Assembly: GCF_023525255.1 (NCBI RefSeq)
Contig: NZ_CP073355.1
Coordinates: 124,001 to 188,000, forward strand
DNA: 64,000 bases
DNA from: Thermospira aquatica
Lineage (GTDB): Bacteria > Spirochaetota > Brevinematia > Brevinematales > Thermospiraceae
Reading direction: 5' to 3'
In this document: in pieces, positions 5,286-13,827 of the stretch
Layout: each line of letters starts with the position of its first letter
Numbering within the stretch: the stretch's first letter is position 1
The notes under the pieces: generated by a model
Databases searched by the model: none
What the model saw: only the letters and a program-made list of their open reading frames with translations
What the model was told of the DNA's origin: nothing
Made by a program: the position numbers and the translations under genes

Positions 5286-5825
5286 ATGATAGAGATTCGA
5301 AACGAACAAGAGATTTTTGATAACCCACTTTTCATGGACCGTATCACCCTTCTCATGCGCAAAATCCTGAGTGACCATAAGGCGGAAAAGTATAGTGTTT
5401 CCCTTCTTTTTTGCGACAATTCCACTATTGAAAAACTCAACAGTCTTTACCGTGGAAAGAACACCCCTACTGATGTTCTTTCTTTCTCTCTTATTGAAGG
5501 TGAAACATTGGAAGATTTCTCTCAAATAGCTTTAGAGGGAGAAGATGGAGAAATCTATGAAATGTTAGGCGATGTTGTGATATCTACCGAAAAAGCTAAA
5601 ACCCAGGCCCTAGAAAATAACTTTTCCTGGGAAGAAGAAATCGCCAATCTTGTCATCCACGGTACTCTCCACCTGTTGGGATATGATCACGAACGTGGAC
5701 CAGAAGATGAAAAAATTATGTTTGAAAAACAGGACTCCTATCTTGAATGGTTTCTTAGTCAGTACCCCGAGTATCAGGCTAAGGCAAACGAATCATCACT
5801 ATCTGAATCCCCATCCAAAACATAA
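5286..5825 (+). CDS. ybeY: Endoribonuclease YbeY
   Basis: YbeY is a Zn-dependent single-strand endoribonuclease in 16S rRNA 3' maturation and ribosome quality control. The signature HGTLHLLGYDHE carries the three Zn ligands near residue 126; TDVLSFSL is also typical. 179 residues. The ATG at 5286 has AGGTGG just upstream, and the conserved domain starts soon after it. An open frame continues upstream into the previous gene but shows no family similarity. The last 47 bases overlap the 3' end of the convergent batA gene. In many bacteria ybeY lies beside phoH and pgpH; here those are in the neighbouring opposite operon. Confidence 0.94.
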   Translation: MIEIRNEQEIFDNPLFMDRITLLMRKILSDHKAEKYSVSLLFCDNSTIEKLNSLYRGKNTPTDVLSFSLIEGETLEDFSQIALEGEDGEIYEMLGDVVISTEKAKTQALENNFSWEEEIANLVIHGTLHLLGYDHERGPEDEKIMFEKQDSYLEWFLSQYPEYQAKANESSLSESPSKT

Positions 5826-6837
5826 GAGACAGCCAGAATATAAACGCAAAAGGCCAGAAATTTTCCCGCCAGAAGATCTTTCTCTGGATAGTAATACGGG
5901 ACTTTTCAAGACGATCGATATCATCATAGATCTTTTCGAGCGCCTGCCTATCGTAGGCGCGATAGTATTTTCCTCCGGTACTTTCTGCCATCCAGGATAA
6001 CAGCGCCTCATCAATCGTCTCACCCGAACGCAACACATACAAACGACCAGACCTATCCACTGGCTGAAGGACCGCCTCTGGATTCCCAAAACCTATGGTA
6101 TAGATACGTATTCCCCTCTCCTGGGCCAGCCGAGCAGAGGTTTTTGGTTCGACTAACCCAGCATTGTTCATCCCATCCGTAAGGAGAATAATAACCTTGC
6201 TCTTTGCTCTGGAGGATGAGAGCCGATTGATAGCCGTTGCCACTCCCATTCCGATGGCAGTTCGATTGTTTTCCGGTCGAAACTGGATACCTTCCACCAA
6301 GCGCCGTACCATATCAAGGTCAAAAGTAAGTGGTGTCAGAGTATAAGCGTAGGTTCCAAAAAGTACTACACCTAAACGATTTTGGGATTGTTTATCAATA
6401 TAAGACTGGATCACCTTTTTCGCTGACTCAAGACGATTATATTCTAACAATTTACCCGTAGGATCTTCGTACACCGTCTCGCCATAAAGAGATCGCCTCA
6501 CCAAAAACGACGGTATCTCATCCACAAAAAGCATCGTCTCCGACACATCTATCACAAGAACAATATCAATCCCGTAGAGATTATCCTGTGTTGTTGTCTG
6601 TCCCCCTATGGGCCGTGCAAGTGCTATAATCCCGAAAAAAAGCCCCACCATCACAAGCCCATCAAGGAGCCAATCATACCAACCACTCCAGAAAACTCGT
6701 TTCCCAAAAAGCCTCATATCTGAAACAAGGACACTTCCCTCTCCTATCTTTCCCCAAAAATTTTTTCCGTACTTCAGATAAAGATATACCGGAAGAATAA
6801 CAAGCCCAACAAGATACCAGGGATGAAGAAACCTCAC
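5779..6837 (-). CDS. batA: BatA-type von Willebrand A membrane protein
   Basis: The 352-residue protein has an N-terminal membrane segment (HPWYLVGLVILPVYLYLKYG), a second near residue 65 (VGLFFGIIALARPIG), a VWA domain from ~90 to ~285 and a C-terminal membrane helix. This is the architecture of Bacteroides aerotolerance (Bat) proteins. The metal-site motif reads DVSET where DxSxS is usual, so the fifth position is Thr; the later TDGMNNAG is intact. Bat proteins are linked to envelope stress tolerance in some bacteria, but no MoxR ATPase gene is in the window. It is last in its operon and overlaps the preceding gene by 4 bases. Confidence 0.8.
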   Translation of the reverse strand: MRFLHPWYLVGLVILPVYLYLKYGKNFWGKIGEGSVLVSDMRLFGKRVFWSGWYDWLLDGLVMVGLFFGIIALARPIGGQTTTQDNLYGIDIVLVIDVSETMLFVDEIPSFLVRRSLYGETVYEDPTGKLLEYNRLESAKKVIQSYIDKQSQNRLGVVLFGTYAYTLTPLTFDLDMVRRLVEGIQFRPENNRTAIGMGVATAINRLSSSRAKSKVIILLTDGMNNAGLVEPKTSARLAQERGIRIYTIGFGNPEAVLQPVDRSGRLYVLRSGETIDEALLSWMAESTGGKYYRAYDRQALEKIYDDIDRLEKSRITIQRKIFWRENFWPFAFIFWLSLMFWMGIQIVMIRLP

Positions 6838-7622
6838 GGTTTTTCCTCCTTAGAGAGAATCAGCTCTTTATAAATCTCTTCAAGCTGTTCTAAAATTTCT
6901 CGACGTTTCGCTTCACTTGTAATGTGTTTGGCATACTTCACACGATCACACCATTTCAGTACATCAAGGATAAGTTCTTTCAATTCCCCTGTTGCTACAA
7001 TTCTCACCCCAATTTCTCGACTTGCCATCTCACGAGCCGGAAAATCATACGCTTTTTCCAGAACACGACGCAAAAGATATGCTACCTCAGAGTAATACTC
7101 TTTCTCTCCAAGAATATCAAGAGCCTGCCTCAGGTGTTGAAATGCCTCTTCCAGGGTTTCCTCAGCGAAAGAAGAAGTCTCTTCCTGATGGGTTTTCCCA
7201 CGATTTTTCCACCACCAAACAATTCCAAAAACCAAAACAAGAATCAAAAACAACCATAGCAACCAGGTATAATCAGTAAAAAAATAAATAGGAGCCAGAT
7301 CTTGTAGCTGAGATACTCCTATATTCGTTGGAGCAACCCTGAGTACCCACCCCTCAAACCTGACAATATTCGTATCCCCTTGTGAAAACGATATCACACG
7401 AACTGGCGGAAAAACTACATTGGAGAGAGAAAAATGACGCAGAGAAAATCGCAATCCATTGGTTCGCTCCACCGACTGAAGAAGCACAAAAGGCGAAAGG
7501 TCTCCCTCAAATTCATAGGTAAGAACCTTGCCCGTCACGGGATACACCACCTCAAAAGACTCCCCTATCGGCACCTCATTGGCAGGAAAAAGAGGAAGAA
7601 GAAGCCATAGCCACCACCACAT
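6834..7622 (-). CDS. Membrane protein between pgpH and batA, BatD-like layout
   Basis: 262 residues. A Trp/Leu-rich signal segment at the start is followed by a periplasmic beta-rich part (to ~112), one membrane helix (YTWLLWLFLILVLVFGIVWW) and a helical cytoplasmic tail containing a TPR-like segment (AFQHLRQALDILGEKEYYSEVAYLLRRVLE). I do not recognise a named family from sequence alone. Its position immediately before batA and its topology resemble small BatD/DUF4381-type partners of Bat VWA proteins, so a role in that complex is inferred. It begins within 1 base of the pgpH stop and overlaps batA by 4 bases. Confidence 0.7.
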   Translation of the reverse strand: MWWWLWLLLPLFPANEVPIGESFEVVYPVTGKVLTYEFEGDLSPFVLLQSVERTNGLRFSLRHFSLSNVVFPPVRVISFSQGDTNIVRFEGWVLRVAPTNIGVSQLQDLAPIYFFTDYTWLLWLFLILVLVFGIVWWWKNRGKTHQEETSSFAEETLEEAFQHLRQALDILGEKEYYSEVAYLLRRVLEKAYDFPAREMASREIGVRIVATGELKELILDVLKWCDRVKYAKHITSEAKRREILEQLEEIYKELILSKEEKP

Positions 7623-9805
7623 TAATGTCTCCTCGAGCCCACATTTTCTTTTTCTTTGCGTTCATGATAATCTTTTCTCTTATGATACAATGCAGAAAGA
7701 TACTCTACAAAAACATCACGAATCTGTCGAATCTGTCGAAGCGTAATAGGACAATTATCAAGCTGACCGGAGGTAAGCCTCTGTTCAATAATATCATCAA
7801 CAATATCCTCAATAGTATGCAGATTGAACCGAACCTCTGGTTTTTCCATATAGGCACGGGCCGTTGCCTCAACACCATCAGCCAGCATCAGAATCGCCGT
7901 TTCCAGAGTACTTGGTTTTGGACCAGGGTACTGATAATCAGCAGGATTGATGGTTTCTTCCCCATAGAAACGAATCGCTCGGGTGTAGAAATACGATATA
8001 TGGGTAGTACCATGATGTTCTTCAATAAAAGCAATAATTTCCTCTGGCAAACGGTATTGCCTTGCAAGCTCTACCCCATACTTCACATGGGATTTTATCA
8101 CCGAGGTGGAGAGTCCCGGGGTAATCTCATCATGAGGATTCTCTCCCTCCTGATTTTCAATAAAAAACTCAGGGGTTTGAAGTTTCCCTACATCATGATA
8201 ATACGCTCCCACACGAGCCAGAAGAGCGTCCGCTCCAATCTTTTCCGCCGCCATCTCACACATTTCCCCCAACCTGAGAGAATGCATGTAGGTTCCCGGG
8301 GCTTTATCTTTAAGTTCTGAAAGCAAAACACTCGTTGAAGAGGAAGAAAGCTCCGTCAGTCGAAAATACGTTGGAATATTAAATACATACTCAAAAAATG
8401 GCAGAATACCAAACGCTATCAGGGCAGAAATCAAGCTATTTCCCAGACAAAAAAGTCCAACCACAAACCACTGATACCATGAAAAATTCATCTGATAGTG
8501 CCAGGCATAAAGAAAAGCAAAAATTACCTGGATAACAAAAATCTCCATTCCTATCACAAAGAAGTCATACCGTTTCTGAAAGCTTTTTCTCTTTTGAGAA
8601 GCGGTATACAAGGCAAAAAGTGCCAATGCCAGAAGATTTGCAAAAGTAAGCGCATCAGTTAGAGGATAAAACACCGAGTAGAGACTAAAATTAATAAGAA
8701 GCACAAAAACCACCGGCTGTTGTTGAAAAAGAATTGGAAGCGTCAATGTTATCACTGCAAAGGGAATATGGAGAAAAATAGGCAAAGAAAAACTCCTTGC
8801 TGAGACATGAGCATACCACAGGAAAACATGCACCAGGGTATAAAATATTAAACCAATCATGAAAAAAGAAGCCTTTCTCCAAAGAATTTCCTGATATTTA
8901 TAATAACGAAAGATGAAAAGCACAAAAATAATCATCATCGCTATCAAAATAGCTGGAAAACGGTAACGAAAAATTTTCCACTGATAGTCCCAGTAGGCAT
9001 GTAATCGTTGTTTTTTTTCAGGAGTAATAACCTCCCCCTCCTGAAGAATAGTTTCTCCTTTCCGAATAATTTCTCGAGGAAGCTTTTCCTCGACTTTTGC
9101 TATGACCATCCGATCCCGCGCATTTGCATCAAGCTCTGCGGTTGGTCGAAGAATATACAAAAGTACCTCTGCCATAGCCTCATACAAAAGCCCATTCCCC
9201 CTCCCGTACAGTTGCTGAAACACCCCAAGAAGCCATGATTTCTCTAGAGGAACAAGGAGTAGAGAAGAAACGGGCAATATCCTTGTTTCTCTGTCAGAGG
9301 AAAGATAAAATACTTCGGCTCCACCTGGGAAAAATCTATCAACCAGAATATAATTCTCCTGCAAATAGTCCAGAACAAACATCAATCGGTTTTCGTAACG
9401 AGCAAGAAGAAAACGATTCTCAAGAATATACTCTCTAATCCGGGGGGTATACAAAAAGTTCTGTTCCCTAAAGTAATTCTCAAATTCTTTCTCATCCCGA
9501 TAACTCGCTGCTACCGCCAACCACTCAGCCAGTTGCTTTTTATTTTTTTCTTTTGCACCATTAATCACCCGATAATAGAAAGGAGCATTTTTTTCTATTT
9601 CTTTTTTGAGTGTTTCCCGAGCCTCTATGTTTTCGTAGGTAAAGGTATACCATGATACCATCTCCCGAGGAGAAGGGGTATTGATCTGATAACTCTCCAG
9701 AGAAAAAGGCCAATAACTCATTGTCAGAAAGACAGCACTCACTAACCAAACACCTAACAAAAGAAAAACCATTATTTTGCGTGATAAGGGTTCATCCCAT
9801 TTCAT
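7622..9805 (-). CDS. pgpH: 7TM-HD family cyclic-di-AMP phosphodiesterase, PgpH type
   Basis: 727 residues: one N-terminal membrane helix, an extracytoplasmic 7TMR-HDED domain to ~residue 280, a block of seven membrane helices (~280-470) and a C-terminal HD domain. HD motifs are canonical: MHSLRLGEM, AYYHDVGKLQTPEFFIENQ, NPHDEI, SHVKYG and EEHHGT. Listeria PgpH with this architecture degrades c-di-AMP. The substrate here is inferred from family membership; no diadenylate cyclase gene is in the window. It overlaps phoH upstream by 4 bases and abuts the membrane protein downstream. Confidence 0.92.
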   Translation of the reverse strand: MKWDEPLSRKIMVFLLLGVWLVSAVFLTMSYWPFSLESYQINTPSPREMVSWYTFTYENIEARETLKKEIEKNAPFYYRVINGAKEKNKKQLAEWLAVAASYRDEKEFENYFREQNFLYTPRIREYILENRFLLARYENRLMFVLDYLQENYILVDRFFPGGAEVFYLSSDRETRILPVSSLLLVPLEKSWLLGVFQQLYGRGNGLLYEAMAEVLLYILRPTAELDANARDRMVIAKVEEKLPREIIRKGETILQEGEVITPEKKQRLHAYWDYQWKIFRYRFPAILIAMMIIFVLFIFRYYKYQEILWRKASFFMIGLIFYTLVHVFLWYAHVSARSFSLPIFLHIPFAVITLTLPILFQQQPVVFVLLINFSLYSVFYPLTDALTFANLLALALFALYTASQKRKSFQKRYDFFVIGMEIFVIQVIFAFLYAWHYQMNFSWYQWFVVGLFCLGNSLISALIAFGILPFFEYVFNIPTYFRLTELSSSSTSVLLSELKDKAPGTYMHSLRLGEMCEMAAEKIGADALLARVGAYYHDVGKLQTPEFFIENQEGENPHDEITPGLSTSVIKSHVKYGVELARQYRLPEEIIAFIEEHHGTTHISYFYTRAIRFYGEETINPADYQYPGPKPSTLETAILMLADGVEATARAYMEKPEVRFNLHTIEDIVDDIIEQRLTSGQLDNCPITLRQIRQIRDVFVEYLSALYHKRKDYHERKEKENVGSRRH

Positions 9806-10746
9806 ATTTTCCTCTGCTCATAGCGAGAAAGAATTCTGGCTACTAACGGGTGACGCACAATATCCCCTTCATCAAAATACATCACCGCAATCCCTGGAAC
9901 GTTCGTTAAAAGATGAAGCGCCTCCACAAGTCCAGAATCCTGGGCTGATGGAAGATCTATCTGGGTTACATCTCCTGTTACCACCATCTTTGTACCCTCC
10001 CCCAAACGGGTAAGAAACATCTTCATCTGCATCCGTGTGGCATTCTGTGCCTCATCGAGAATGACAAAAGCCTGCGAGAGTGTTCTTCCCCGCATATATG
10101 CAAGTGGAGCAATCTCCACTTCTCCAGACAACGAAAGTCGTTCTGCCTCCTCAGGGGAGAGAATATCCTCCAGGGCATCAAAAAGTGGTCTCAGATAGGG
10201 ATGGAGCTTTTCCTCAAAGGTTCCGGGTAAAAATCCCAAACTCTCCCCAGCTTCTACCACCGGTCGGGTGAGAATAAGTTTTTTTACTTTGCCTGAAAAA
10301 AGATAAAAAAGACCAACTGCCATGGCAAGATAGGTTTTCCCTGTACCAGCTGGTCCAACACCAAAAATAAGATCACGCTGATGCATCACCTCAATGTACT
10401 GACTTTGATGAATACTTCTGGGTTTTATCTTTTTCGCTTTTTTACTAATAACCAGGCCCTCTGCCAATAGCTTAGATGCTGAATGAGCTATCTTTCCCTC
10501 CTGTTCTATGAGGAATTTGATCTCTCCATGAGAAACTGGTGTGTTACCACGAGCAAGCTGGAACACTTCTTTCAAAACATGGGATGCTGTTGTACAACTC
10601 TCCTCTGTCCCTTCGATAATCAATATATCATTTTTTGCATGAATTTTTACCTCAAGAAGACGTTCCATCAAACGAAGATTAGAATCATGGACTCCAAGAG
10701 CAAGAACAGGATGAATGTCTCCCGGTACGGGAAACTCATACCTCAT
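9802..10746 (-). CDS. phoH: PhoH-family ATPase
   Basis: 314 residues with Walker A GPAGTGKTYLA, Walker B-like VILDEAQN and the family segment LTRPVVEAGESLGFLPGTFEEK. The N-terminal ~100 residues resemble the KH-like domain of PhoH/PhoL proteins. PhoH-like ATPases are associated with RNA metabolism and are usually neighbours of ybeY and pgpH, as here. The start lies 16 bp after the RtcB-like gene, with no promoter visible in between, so it should share that transcript. Confidence 0.94.
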   Translation of the reverse strand: MRYEFPVPGDIHPVLALGVHDSNLRLMERLLEVKIHAKNDILIIEGTEESCTTASHVLKEVFQLARGNTPVSHGEIKFLIEQEGKIAHSASKLLAEGLVISKKAKKIKPRSIHQSQYIEVMHQRDLIFGVGPAGTGKTYLAMAVGLFYLFSGKVKKLILTRPVVEAGESLGFLPGTFEEKLHPYLRPLFDALEDILSPEEAERLSLSGEVEIAPLAYMRGRTLSQAFVILDEAQNATRMQMKMFLTRLGEGTKMVVTGDVTQIDLPSAQDSGLVEALHLLTNVPGIAVMYFDEGDIVRHPLVARILSRYEQRKI

Positions 10747-10762
10747 AGATATCTCTCTCCCT

Positions 10763-12169
10763 TCACGCCAGCAAAATCCCTACAGGTTTTACAGCTGCTA
10801 TGCGGCTAACCCAGCTACTTCTCAGCCAGAAATCAACCGCTGCTCTTGGTGATTCAGTGTTTTTAGGGTGAAAACGCCAGTCTAGGATCTCATTTTGAGA
10901 ACGAAGAAAGATTCCTTGATCTTTGAGGTTTTTAAGCCATTCTTGATCTCCAACCACAGAAGGAGGAACTGTTGGTTGCACAACCTCAAGTGATCCAAAA
11001 CTTTTTTCAAGAAGAGGATCTTTACCAGAAACGATATACGAAGGTTGACCCACACCACCCCAGAGAAGGGCAGGATTGCCTACCACATGGTAGGATCGAG
11101 AAAGATCCCCTTCATCCCGAATCTGGGTACGCACGCTTCCCTTGCGATAGACATAAACCTCCTCGGGAAGTGAACCAAGGGCATGAATCTCCTTGCGGAT
11201 CGTATTTGTCGCACTATCATACATCGTGTTTGCCTCCACATCTTTGAGCAAAACATTGAGAACATGGTAGACCTGTGCCGCAATAAATTGTCGATTAGCC
11301 AGAGCGTAATTGGAAACACATTGTACAGCTTGATAAAACAACTGAGCCTCAGTAACATGTGCGGGCAAATAGACCATCGAGGAATGTGGTGGAGTGATCC
11401 CATAATGTTCCATTTTTTCTTTAAAGAGACGATAATAATACCACCACACCGCACGCCCTAAACTCGCAGATCCTGCTCTATAAGTAATGAGAAGCTGATT
11501 TTTGAAAAGACCGTAAACTCGCGCTTTTTCTACATCAAAAACTTCACTCACAATCTGAAATTCGAGAAAATGCCTAATCGTACCAAATTGCTTGCGTTCC
11601 TCTTCTAAAAGAAACTCGGGCACACTCGTAAGATTAGACACGGGAAGATCCCCATAGTCTTCGATGTACTCTAGTTCATCCTGAAACTCGGGAGACTTGT
11701 TTTCTTGTACCCAACGGGCTCCCTGACTAAAGATTTCGAGGAGATCTCTTTTGGAGAGAGATATTCTCCCTGTTGCCTTGCTTCCTACAGGTACTACACG
11801 TTGAATATCTTTGAGAATAAGTCCCATCTTCTTATCAACATCAGGGAAAATAAGGTTTGTTGTAAGCGTTCGTACACCAAGATTGATATCCCAGTTAATA
11901 CCACCGGGCATCATTATCCCATCGTGAACTCCGCTGGCGAAAACTATCCCCAAGGGTACTGCATGGGAAGGAACAGCATGTGGAAAGACCACTATGGCAT
12001 CCTTTACACCGTCAAGTGTAGACAATACTTCAACTTGCCTCAACACTTGAGGATGAAACTTTGAGAGTTGCTGCTGTGTGGCAAAAAAACGAATGGCTGC
12101 ATGGCTTTCATCTCTGCGCGGTAAAACTCTTTCAAATTCATTAACTCGTTGAAGTTCGCTAAGTTCCAT
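10763..12169 (-). CDS. RtcB-like protein lacking the ligase active site
   Basis: The 468-residue protein can be followed along the RtcB RNA-ligase fold: PGGINWDINLGVRTL aligns with the GxDIxCG segment, HFLEFQIVSEV with GNHFxEI, YRAGSASLG with HSGSRGxG, YALANRQ, YDSATNTI with the xxHN segment, VYRKGSVRT with RKGA, and GVGQPSYIVSG with GSMGxxSYIVxG. The catalytic positions are changed: metal-binding Cys is Leu, the Asn before the GNHF His is Arg, the HSGSRG His is Tyr, the HN His is Thr, and the guanylylated His of SHGAGR is replaced in SLEVVQP. Tyr or Val sits at the other key sites. An RNA-ligase activity is therefore unlikely; an RNA-binding or scaffold role is inference. GGGGAG precedes the ATG. 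First gene of the phoH-pgpH-batA operon. Confidence 0.8.
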   Translation of the reverse strand: MELSELQRVNEFERVLPRRDESHAAIRFFATQQQLSKFHPQVLRQVEVLSTLDGVKDAIVVFPHAVPSHAVPLGIVFASGVHDGIMMPGGINWDINLGVRTLTTNLIFPDVDKKMGLILKDIQRVVPVGSKATGRISLSKRDLLEIFSQGARWVQENKSPEFQDELEYIEDYGDLPVSNLTSVPEFLLEEERKQFGTIRHFLEFQIVSEVFDVEKARVYGLFKNQLLITYRAGSASLGRAVWWYYYRLFKEKMEHYGITPPHSSMVYLPAHVTEAQLFYQAVQCVSNYALANRQFIAAQVYHVLNVLLKDVEANTMYDSATNTIRKEIHALGSLPEEVYVYRKGSVRTQIRDEGDLSRSYHVVGNPALLWGGVGQPSYIVSGKDPLLEKSFGSLEVVQPTVPPSVVGDQEWLKNLKDQGIFLRSQNEILDWRFHPKNTESPRAAVDFWLRSSWVSRIAAVKPVGILLA

Positions 12170-12196: not shown

Positions 12197-12225
12197 ATTG
12201 TACAACGTTTTTAGAAAAAAGTAAA
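12197..12225 (-). promoter_or_regulatory. Candidate promoter of the RtcB-like/phoH/pgpH/batA operon
   Basis: On the minus strand a -10 TACAAT (12197-12202) lies 17 bp from a weak -35 TTTACT (12220-12225). The distance to the ATG at 12169 leaves a leader of about 20 nt containing GGGGAG. Confidence 0.55.
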
Positions 12226-12299
12226 TACCCTAATGAAAGTTTTTTCATGAAAGTTTTTTTTGGATAAAGAAGTTGCCGTGATAGGGGTTTGGGGTGTAA

Positions 12300-12898
12300 G
12301 CTATTACGATATCACAGTGTGGTGGGGATTTTTTTGTTAGGGGGAGCTTGCTATTCCTTTGTTGCAGTGGGCCTGTCATGCGGGCTATTACCTTGTTGCA
12401 GTGTAAAGTTGAGTCTTGGGGGCTATTACCTTGTTGCAGTCGGAAGAGGGGGGATGGGTATTCCCTTGTTGCAGTACAAAAAACGCTAGCTATTACCATT
12501 TTGCAGTAAATGTGTGGGACCTGAAGGCTGTTTCCTTGTTGCGGGGGAAAGGTTTTTGCTATTACCATGTTGCAGTCTAGAAACTGGGCTAGCTCTTACC
12601 ATATCACAGTGAGGATCCTAAGCTATTCCCTTGTTGCAGGAAAAAACTCTTGCTGTTACCTTGTCACAGTGGGAAAAATTCTAGCTATTACTTTTTCACA
12701 GTTATAAACCATCTGATGCCACTGCAAAAGGGTAAGAGCTTACGTCAAAACCCCAGCTTAAACGTTTAACCTTTATATCCCCTCTCACGCTCTCACGTGC
12801 TTTGAGATTTGCTCTTACCATGTTGTAGTAAAGAAAAAACTTTCTCTTACCCGACCTTAGGAAATCTCTTGTCCCACACACTGCAAAAAGGTAAGAGC
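12300..12898 (+). repeat. Left array of a degenerate 19-bp repeat (15 copies)
   Basis: Fifteen copies of a 19-mer with best form GCTATTACCTTGTTGCAGT occur here. Plus-strand copies start at 12300, 12350, 12384, 12422, 12457, 12489, 12527, 12558, 12592, 12622, 12652, 12684 and 12811; inverted copies start at 12721 and 12880. Spacing between starts is mostly 30-38 bp and intervening sequences are unrelated. Variation falls on fixed positions: A/C at 4 and 7, C/T at 9, and TG/CA at 14-15, while CAGT is nearly invariant. A 12-bp palindrome, TTAAACGTTTAA, lies at 12758-12769. No coding potential is seen between rtcB-like and the transposase-like gene. Confidence 0.9.
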
Positions 12899-13026
12899 AT
12901 TTTTCTCAACCCCCAAAATCTCCCCATCGATCTTACTTTTAAAATATATAAAACATCTTTTTTAACAACTATAACAAAAAATTTTCGATATATATAGTAT
13001 GAAAAAATTTCTCTAAGGAGAAAACC

Positions 13027-13827
13027 ATGGAAAAGGATTTTTTCACACTCTCAGAAAACGAGGCCTACCAGATTCTCGAAAAAGCCCTCTGGCCAGAGGG
13101 ACCTATTTGCCCAAGGTGTAAGGCAAAGGCTCACCTTCTCTCGTGCCGGCTCGTGTATCAGTGTACCAAATGCGGGAGACAATTCTCCTTAAAAAGCCAG
13201 TCCATCATGCGAAAAAGTCACCTCTCGCCAAAAATCTGGCTTTCTGCCATGTTTCTTGTCTGCCAGGATGGGGGGATAAATGCGGTGAAGCTTTCACAAC
13301 TTCTTCACATTAGCTACAAGGCAAGCTGGCTTCTTCTTCAGAAGCTACGAAGCCTTATGCGGCTTACCACTCGCCATCACACCAAATCCCTCCAGAAACT
13401 TGTAAAAACCTTTTTCTTTCTCTCTGGCATCAAACGCCGCCAAAGAAAAAACTTTTCTCCCATGCAGGTTGTCGAAATTGATGCGGATGATACCCCTTCT
13501 AAACTTCACATTCATCTTGTGGATGATGTGAGTAGCGATTGGCTTTCAGACTTTTTTGGCAAGCTTTTCCGCCACACGCCCGTAGAAAAAAGAACGCCGT
13601 GGCTTTCCCACCTTAACGATGGGTTGAAAAACCTTCTTGAAGACGTCTATCACTATGGTTGTCGAAAGCACATGCAGCGCTATCTTGATGAGTTTTGTTT
13701 TCGGTTTAATATCGAGGGGGCTTCTCAAAGGTTTGAAGAGCTTCTTAAAAGGCTTGGTAAACGTCGCCAGCTCCTCCCGTGGAAAAAGCTTGTTACCGAA
13801 GGGCTTATTCTTCCCATCCACGCGTAG
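13027..13827 (+). CDS. ISXO2/IS1595-like transposase, apparently eroded catalytic core
   Basis: 266 residues. The N-terminus is an IS1595-type zinc ribbon (CPRCKAK and CTKCGRQFSL) followed by the helix-turn-helix region (WLSAMFLVCQDGGINAVKLS). The first catalytic Asp region is visible as VVEIDADD, and the C-terminus keeps the family end motif HMQRYLDEFCFRFN. Between them the Gly-rich strand (usually ETYxGGK) and the segment that normally holds the second Asp (TDxxxxY) are missing, and the HTNxIE segment is unclear. The protein is thus shorter than the usual ~300 residues. AAGGAG precedes the ATG. It is flanked on both sides by 19-bp repeat arrays, so a role as a DNA-binding protein for these repeats is a reasonable inference. 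Confidence 0.72.
   Translation: MEKDFFTLSENEAYQILEKALWPEGPICPRCKAKAHLLSCRLVYQCTKCGRQFSLKSQSIMRKSHLSPKIWLSAMFLVCQDGGINAVKLSQLLHISYKASWLLLQKLRSLMRLTTRHHTKSLQKLVKTFFFLSGIKRRQRKNFSPMQVVEIDADDTPSKLHIHLVDDVSSDWLSDFFGKLFRHTPVEKRTPWLSHLNDGLKNLLEDVYHYGCRKHMQRYLDEFCFRFNIEGASQRFEELLKRLGKRRQLLPWKKLVTEGLILPIHA

Follow-up and report, generated by a model that had tools for sequence, protein, structure and literature searches.

The locus

The window analysed here is a 64,000-nucleotide stretch (positions 124,001 to 188,000 of contig NZ_CP073355.1) of the Thermospira aquatica genome, which consists of one contig of 2.5 Mb. On its reverse strand an RtcB-family gene, called pseudo-RtcB below, is followed by phoH, pgpH and further genes:

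12197-12225, reverse strand: probable operon promoter, TTTACT-17-TACAAT, within a block conserved in three genus members
10763-12169, reverse strand: pseudo-RtcB gene, 468 aa, a long-type RtcB (vertical orthologue) with a dismantled active site
9802-10746, reverse strand: phoH, PhoH-like ATPase, starting 16 nt past the pseudo-RtcB stop codon
7622-9805, reverse strand: pgpH-type 7TM-HD phosphohydrolase
6834-7622, reverse strand: uncharacterised operon gene with a weak DUF4381 match
5779-6837, reverse strand: batA-like VWA protein, the last operon gene

We compared the window genome (G000) with two others of its genus (G001 and G002); the same-genus relatives include the Brevinematales MAGs SKW221 and Ch60. 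The gene order RtcB-phoH (16-18 nt apart)-pgpH-small gene-batA-like is found in all three. PgpH, from what is known of its family, is presumably a c-di-AMP phosphodiesterase. In families f2 and f3 (f1 being the family of the window), phoH and pgpH are neighbours with no RtcB gene next to them; RtcB is found at other places, among unrelated genes. This rules out an ancient RtcB-phoH operon and indicates that the linkage arose in the window's genus. The operon proposed in the earlier note thus stands as far as phoH, pgpH and batA follow RtcB, but the RtcB-phoH adjacency does not extend beyond the genus and, being confined to three genomes, could be incidental.

The TTTACT/TACAAT pair on its own is at chance level; it is contained in an upstream block, GGTATTTACTTTTT...GTACAATATA...AGGA..GGGAG-ATG, that is common to the three genus genomes. 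The block is conserved despite differing neighbours, which are rsfS in G001, a similar-sized gene in G002, and repeats with an IS1595-type transposase in the window. At 12299-12913, flanked by the operon promoter and the transposase gene, the repeats form a diverged array of GCTATTACCTTGTTGCAGT with a period of about 32-38 bp. At up to 3 mismatches, GCTATTACCTTGTTGCAGT has 467 sites genome-wide versus 0 in a reversed control. The transposase (13027-13827) has Zn-ribbon and DDE domains and is missing from this position in the two relatives. An Rfam search of the window gave zero matches.

Family membership and predicted structure

RtcB is a ligase known for its strong conservation. Pseudo-RtcB matched the Pfam RtcB profile (PF01139) with 216 bits (E = 1.4e-63), exceeding the curated cut-off of 27, and the P. 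horikoshii RtcB matched it at E = 4e-51. The PF01139 match ends at profile position 346 of 426; in a comparison of 198 genomes from the phylum, no other long RtcB stops there. An AlphaFold2 model built from 19 relatives (pLDDT 88, pTM 0.91) was overlaid on the GMP- and Mn-bound P. horikoshii RtcB (4dwq); 464 residues were superimposed at 2.2 A with a TM of 0.92, a Z of 50.7 and 27% identity. In this predicted model the RtcB fold is kept over the entire chain, as in the long archaeal/metazoan-like RtcBs of P. horikoshii (PH1602, 1uc2/4dwq) and Thermus (TTHA1785, 2epg). Profile, alignment and predicted structure therefore confirm the open reading frame, its 468-residue length and the end-to-end RtcB homology that had been read from the sequence. 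The model has pLDDT values below 50 only at residues 399-405, by the former nucleophile, and at 436-438, in part of the guanine lid; an intact f3 orthologue modelled from the same 19 sequences as a control had no such residue. Pseudo-RtcB is a homologous member of the RtcB family and lies outside the ligase enzyme class.

Loss of the active site

The losses are numbered here as in P. horikoshii RtcB. Alignment located the following sites:

11978-11980, reverse strand: His64 replaces D65 (the three genus members agree in His; family f2 has Asn)
11879-11881, reverse strand: Leu97 replaces metal-bridging C98 (DINLGVR)
11573-11575, reverse strand: Arg199 replaces N202
11570-11572, reverse strand: His200, equivalent to H203, a metal ligand that is kept
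11477-11479, reverse strand: Arg231 replaces metal ligand H234 (Gln in f2)
11465-11467, reverse strand: Ala235 replaces the RNA-contact Arg R238 (Gly in G002)
11207-11209, reverse strand: Thr321 replaces metal ligand H329
10985-10990, reverse strand: five-residue deletion between residues 394 and 395; most of HGAGR and the H404 nucleophile are gone
10769-10771, reverse strand: Leu467 replaces guanine-contact K480

All three genus members share the changes D65H, H67V, C98L, R190E, N202R, H234R, R238A/G, H329T, R408E, R412P and K480L and the deletion of most of HGAGR including H404, and all three have D95, H203 and E206 fixed. The replacements of C98, N202 and H329 are those recognized in the earlier note, which did not list the changes at D65, H67, R190, R238, R408, R412 and K480 or the retention of D95, H203 and E206. 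Two other losses named there were real but differ in detail. The His of HSGSRG (H234) had been taken as Tyr, but in every alignment it corresponds to Arg231 of ITYRAGSASLG, and the Tyr precedes it. H404 was lost by the five-residue deletion instead of by substitution; the deletion site adjoins the least confident part of the model, at 399-405.

The Mn1 site of RtcB consists of C98, H234 and H329 (PMC10630183), and it is absent, with Leu, Arg and Thr at these positions in all three genus members. The Mn2 site (D95, C98 and H203) keeps two of its three ligands and has lost C98, so that two of the five metal ligands remain overall. The sole cysteine of pseudo-RtcB, Cys284, was rejected as an alternative ligand since it is in a helix (273-308) and replaces an Ala of the intact relatives, so that it is no shifted metal ligand. 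R199, R231 and K131 are new basic residues. Of the 88 positions that are invariant (at least 95%) across 31 intact relatives, pseudo-RtcB keeps 43; a further 27 carry another residue fixed in the genus, 6 are deleted and 12 are variable.

In the P. horikoshii enzyme, D65A, D95A, N202A, H203A, F204A, E206A, H404A and K480A each alone abolish activity; archease rescues K480A and fails to rescue D65A, N202A and H404A (PMC3973293). The inactive D65A mutant reflects the need for D65 in forming the histidine-GMP bond (PMC3973293). Compared with PH1602-type RtcB, pseudo-RtcB lacks C98, H234, H329, N202, D65, H404, R238 and K480, and its genome lacks archease. No archease was found in the genomes of the window's genus or of family f2, and no RtcA in the genus or its order. 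The loss of catalytic residues in a genus without archease makes ligase activity very unlikely, and on its sequence pseudo-RtcB is almost certainly devoid of it. With D95, H203 and E206 still in place, residual metal or ligand chemistry is conceivable.

Conservation and selection within the genus

The three genus orthologues are each exactly 468 residues long, 74-89% identical, and free of stops and frameshifts. Every loss in the window's copy recurs in both other genomes, whose copies are 75% identical to it, and sequencing error or chance is ruled out because three independent assemblies carry the same changes. Between G001 and G002, the closest pair, dN/dS was 0.065 for pseudo-RtcB, 0.041 for the canonical RtcB that is also encoded in these genomes and 0.042 for phoH, and the corresponding dN values were 0.080, 0.079 and 0.046; in the more distant genus pairs synonymous sites are saturated or nearly so. 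A decaying pseudogene whose reading frame happens still to be open would explain why nearly all catalytic residues are lost and why a half-way stage exists in family f2. However, an unchanged length, with neither stops nor frameshifts in any of the three genomes, and the conserved promoter block speak against it, and a dN/dS of 0.065 with a dN equal to that of the canonical paralogue excludes active decay, so that we regard this reading as extremely improbable. The two marks of a pseudoenzyme were both found, namely loss of catalytic residues in all three orthologues of the clade and purifying selection after the loss. With the conserved promoter, they lend good support to the conserved non-catalytic role that the earlier note had suggested.

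On the tree, the genus stem has 2.06 changes per column and is followed by a short, slow crown. The stem/crown ratio of pseudo-RtcB is 4.9, as against 1.8 (InfB) and 1.9 (short RtcB). Rapid change that gives way to renewed constraint is what one would expect when a protein takes on a new function. Within the genus, residues 157-234 and 287-364 are the best conserved and residues 27-52 and 391-442 the least; the last of these segments comprises the old nucleophile loop and the guanine lid.

A changed enzyme, in which D95, H203 and E206 together with the new R199, R231 and H64 make up another active site with a chemistry of its own, is rather improbable. None of these six residues varies among the three genus members. 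Against this reading, conservation and order are at their lowest in the H404 loop and guanine lid (391-442), three metal ligands out of five have been lost, and the sequence gives no sign of a new motif.

Vertical descent and the half-decayed relatives in f2

In the RtcB tree, f1, f2 and f3 form a clade with support of 100/100, which rules out a horizontal origin of the long copy. Pseudo-RtcB is a vertical orthologue of the intact long RtcBs of its order (f3) and class (f5). Families f1 and f2 group with support of 99/96-97, and the branch of f1 is long. AU tests gave p = 0.042 against grouping f2 with f3 and p = 0.073 against grouping f1 with f3; the inner order of the three families is thus likely, yet uncertain.

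The long RtcBs of f2 (L008:1492-2922, L010:1501-2931 and L009:1483-2754) carry D65N, R190N, H234Q and K480R, have lost H67, and have HNTGR or HCTGR in place of HGAGR. Unlike pseudo-RtcB, they keep C98, N202, R238, H329 and H404 and are not located beside phoH. Of 22 sites lost in f2, 21 are also lost in pseudo-RtcB (hypergeometric 5e-7). Judged by these replacements, the f2 copies are probably inactive too. The f2 copy of G011 looks broken only because its contig has a stretch of N there. Across the 198 phylum genomes, long RtcBs of f1 scored 216-233 bits and those of f2 341-398, and all other full-length ones at least 510; no long RtcB outside f1 and f2 looks decayed when judged by its score and its coverage of the profile.

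A second RtcB in the same genome

The search of the window genome for a canonical RtcB, proposed in the earlier note, found one:

G000:C1:2392982-2394019 (L084:6971-8119), reverse strand: short canonical RtcB (L002), 382 aa, motifs DIGCG, GGNHF, HSGSR and HGAGR

It is of E. coli-like length and belongs to the same Pfam family as pseudo-RtcB but, unlike it, has every catalytic motif intact. The gene sits between trpE and trpGD as part of the trp operon; in the other two genus members (L085 and L086) genes of similar size surround it in the same order. Within the class, the short RtcB occurs only in f1 and f2, so that the f2 genomes with a decayed long copy (L008, L009 and L010) resemble the window genome in holding both kinds, whereas in f3 and f5 the intact long copy is the only RtcB. 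In family f4 (G005, G008, G010 and G012; assemblies of 1.5-2.0 Mb) neither kind was found. The tree of short RtcBs is compatible with one as well as with two acquisitions by f1 and f2. Because the short RtcB is present in both decayed families and in no intact one, ligation was probably handed over to it.

Possible functions

The best explanation, which we consider moderately likely as a whole, is that pseudo-RtcB is an exapted, non-catalytic RtcB-fold pseudoenzyme co-expressed with PhoH and PgpH. The long RtcB of the Brevinematales would have been inherited vertically and freed from ligation as the short canonical RtcB took over. D65, H67, R190, H234 and K480 would have been lost in the common ancestor with f2, and C98, N202, R238, H329 and the H404 loop later, on the genus stem. 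Purifying selection would then have kept a stable fold without ligase chemistry, and the gene may have been relocated in front of phoH-pgpH as the first gene of the operon, to be transcribed together with them from the conserved promoter. Most likely, the protein would have no catalytic part and would act as a binding partner or adaptor of PhoH, an RNA-decay ATPase, and/or of PgpH, contacting its partner through the conserved core (about 157-234 and 287-364) and not through the abandoned GTP lid (391-442). The partnership with PhoH/PgpH itself is put forward tentatively and is somewhat doubtful.

The earlier note had tentatively linked the gene to RNA binding in PhoH/YbeY quality control. In such a reading, the dead ligase still binds RNA ends and guards damaged RNA or presents it to PhoH/YbeY. 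Gene order with phoH, the retained fold, H203 and E206, and the new basic residues R199, R231 and K131 are consistent with it, as is the finding that Thermus phoH and ybeY disruptants affect overlapping mRNAs (PMC4229858). Against this, R190 and R408 have become Glu, R412 Pro, and R238 Ala or Gly. The equivalent of R238 is essential in zebrafish RTCB, of which the R263A mutant is inactive (PMC12135372). Net charge is also -4 to 0 as compared with +2 to +4 in the intact f3 orthologues. The loss of R190, the RNA contact R238, R408 and R412, with a phoH link specific to the genus, weakens the proposal, and we consider it unlikely; RNA binding through a new surface is possible.

There is also a slim chance that pseudo-RtcB serves the short canonical RtcB of its genome as a subunit or regulator. 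Both decayed families have both genes, but these are in separate operons, the short one inside trp, and we know of no heteromeric RtcB. The RtcR-RtcAB complex offers a precedent, here as for the adaptor reading, for protein binding by RtcB that does not need its activity (PMC9650030); RtcB there is an intact enzyme, and RtcA is absent from the window's order.

Within the favoured reading of an exapted pseudoenzyme, one quite unlikely version has the pocket refitted with R199, R231 and H64 at the former Mn sites, giving a metal-free anion or nucleotide sensor that would control PhoH and PgpH and might be the first RtcB-family pseudoenzyme described. No paper in the literature searched, which omits most subscription journals, pairs "RtcB" with "pseudoenzyme"; inactive RtcB paralogues may already have been reported in Myxococcus.

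Intact, half-lost and fully lost stages of RtcB survive in one bacterial order, and the genomes in which the first RtcB has decayed are precisely those that carry a second one. The path from enzyme to pseudoenzyme is therefore traceable here and testable. For pseudo-RtcB genes the annotation as PF01139 or "tRNA-splicing ligase RtcB" is misleading, and an RtcB annotation would mislead for the long copies of f2 as well.
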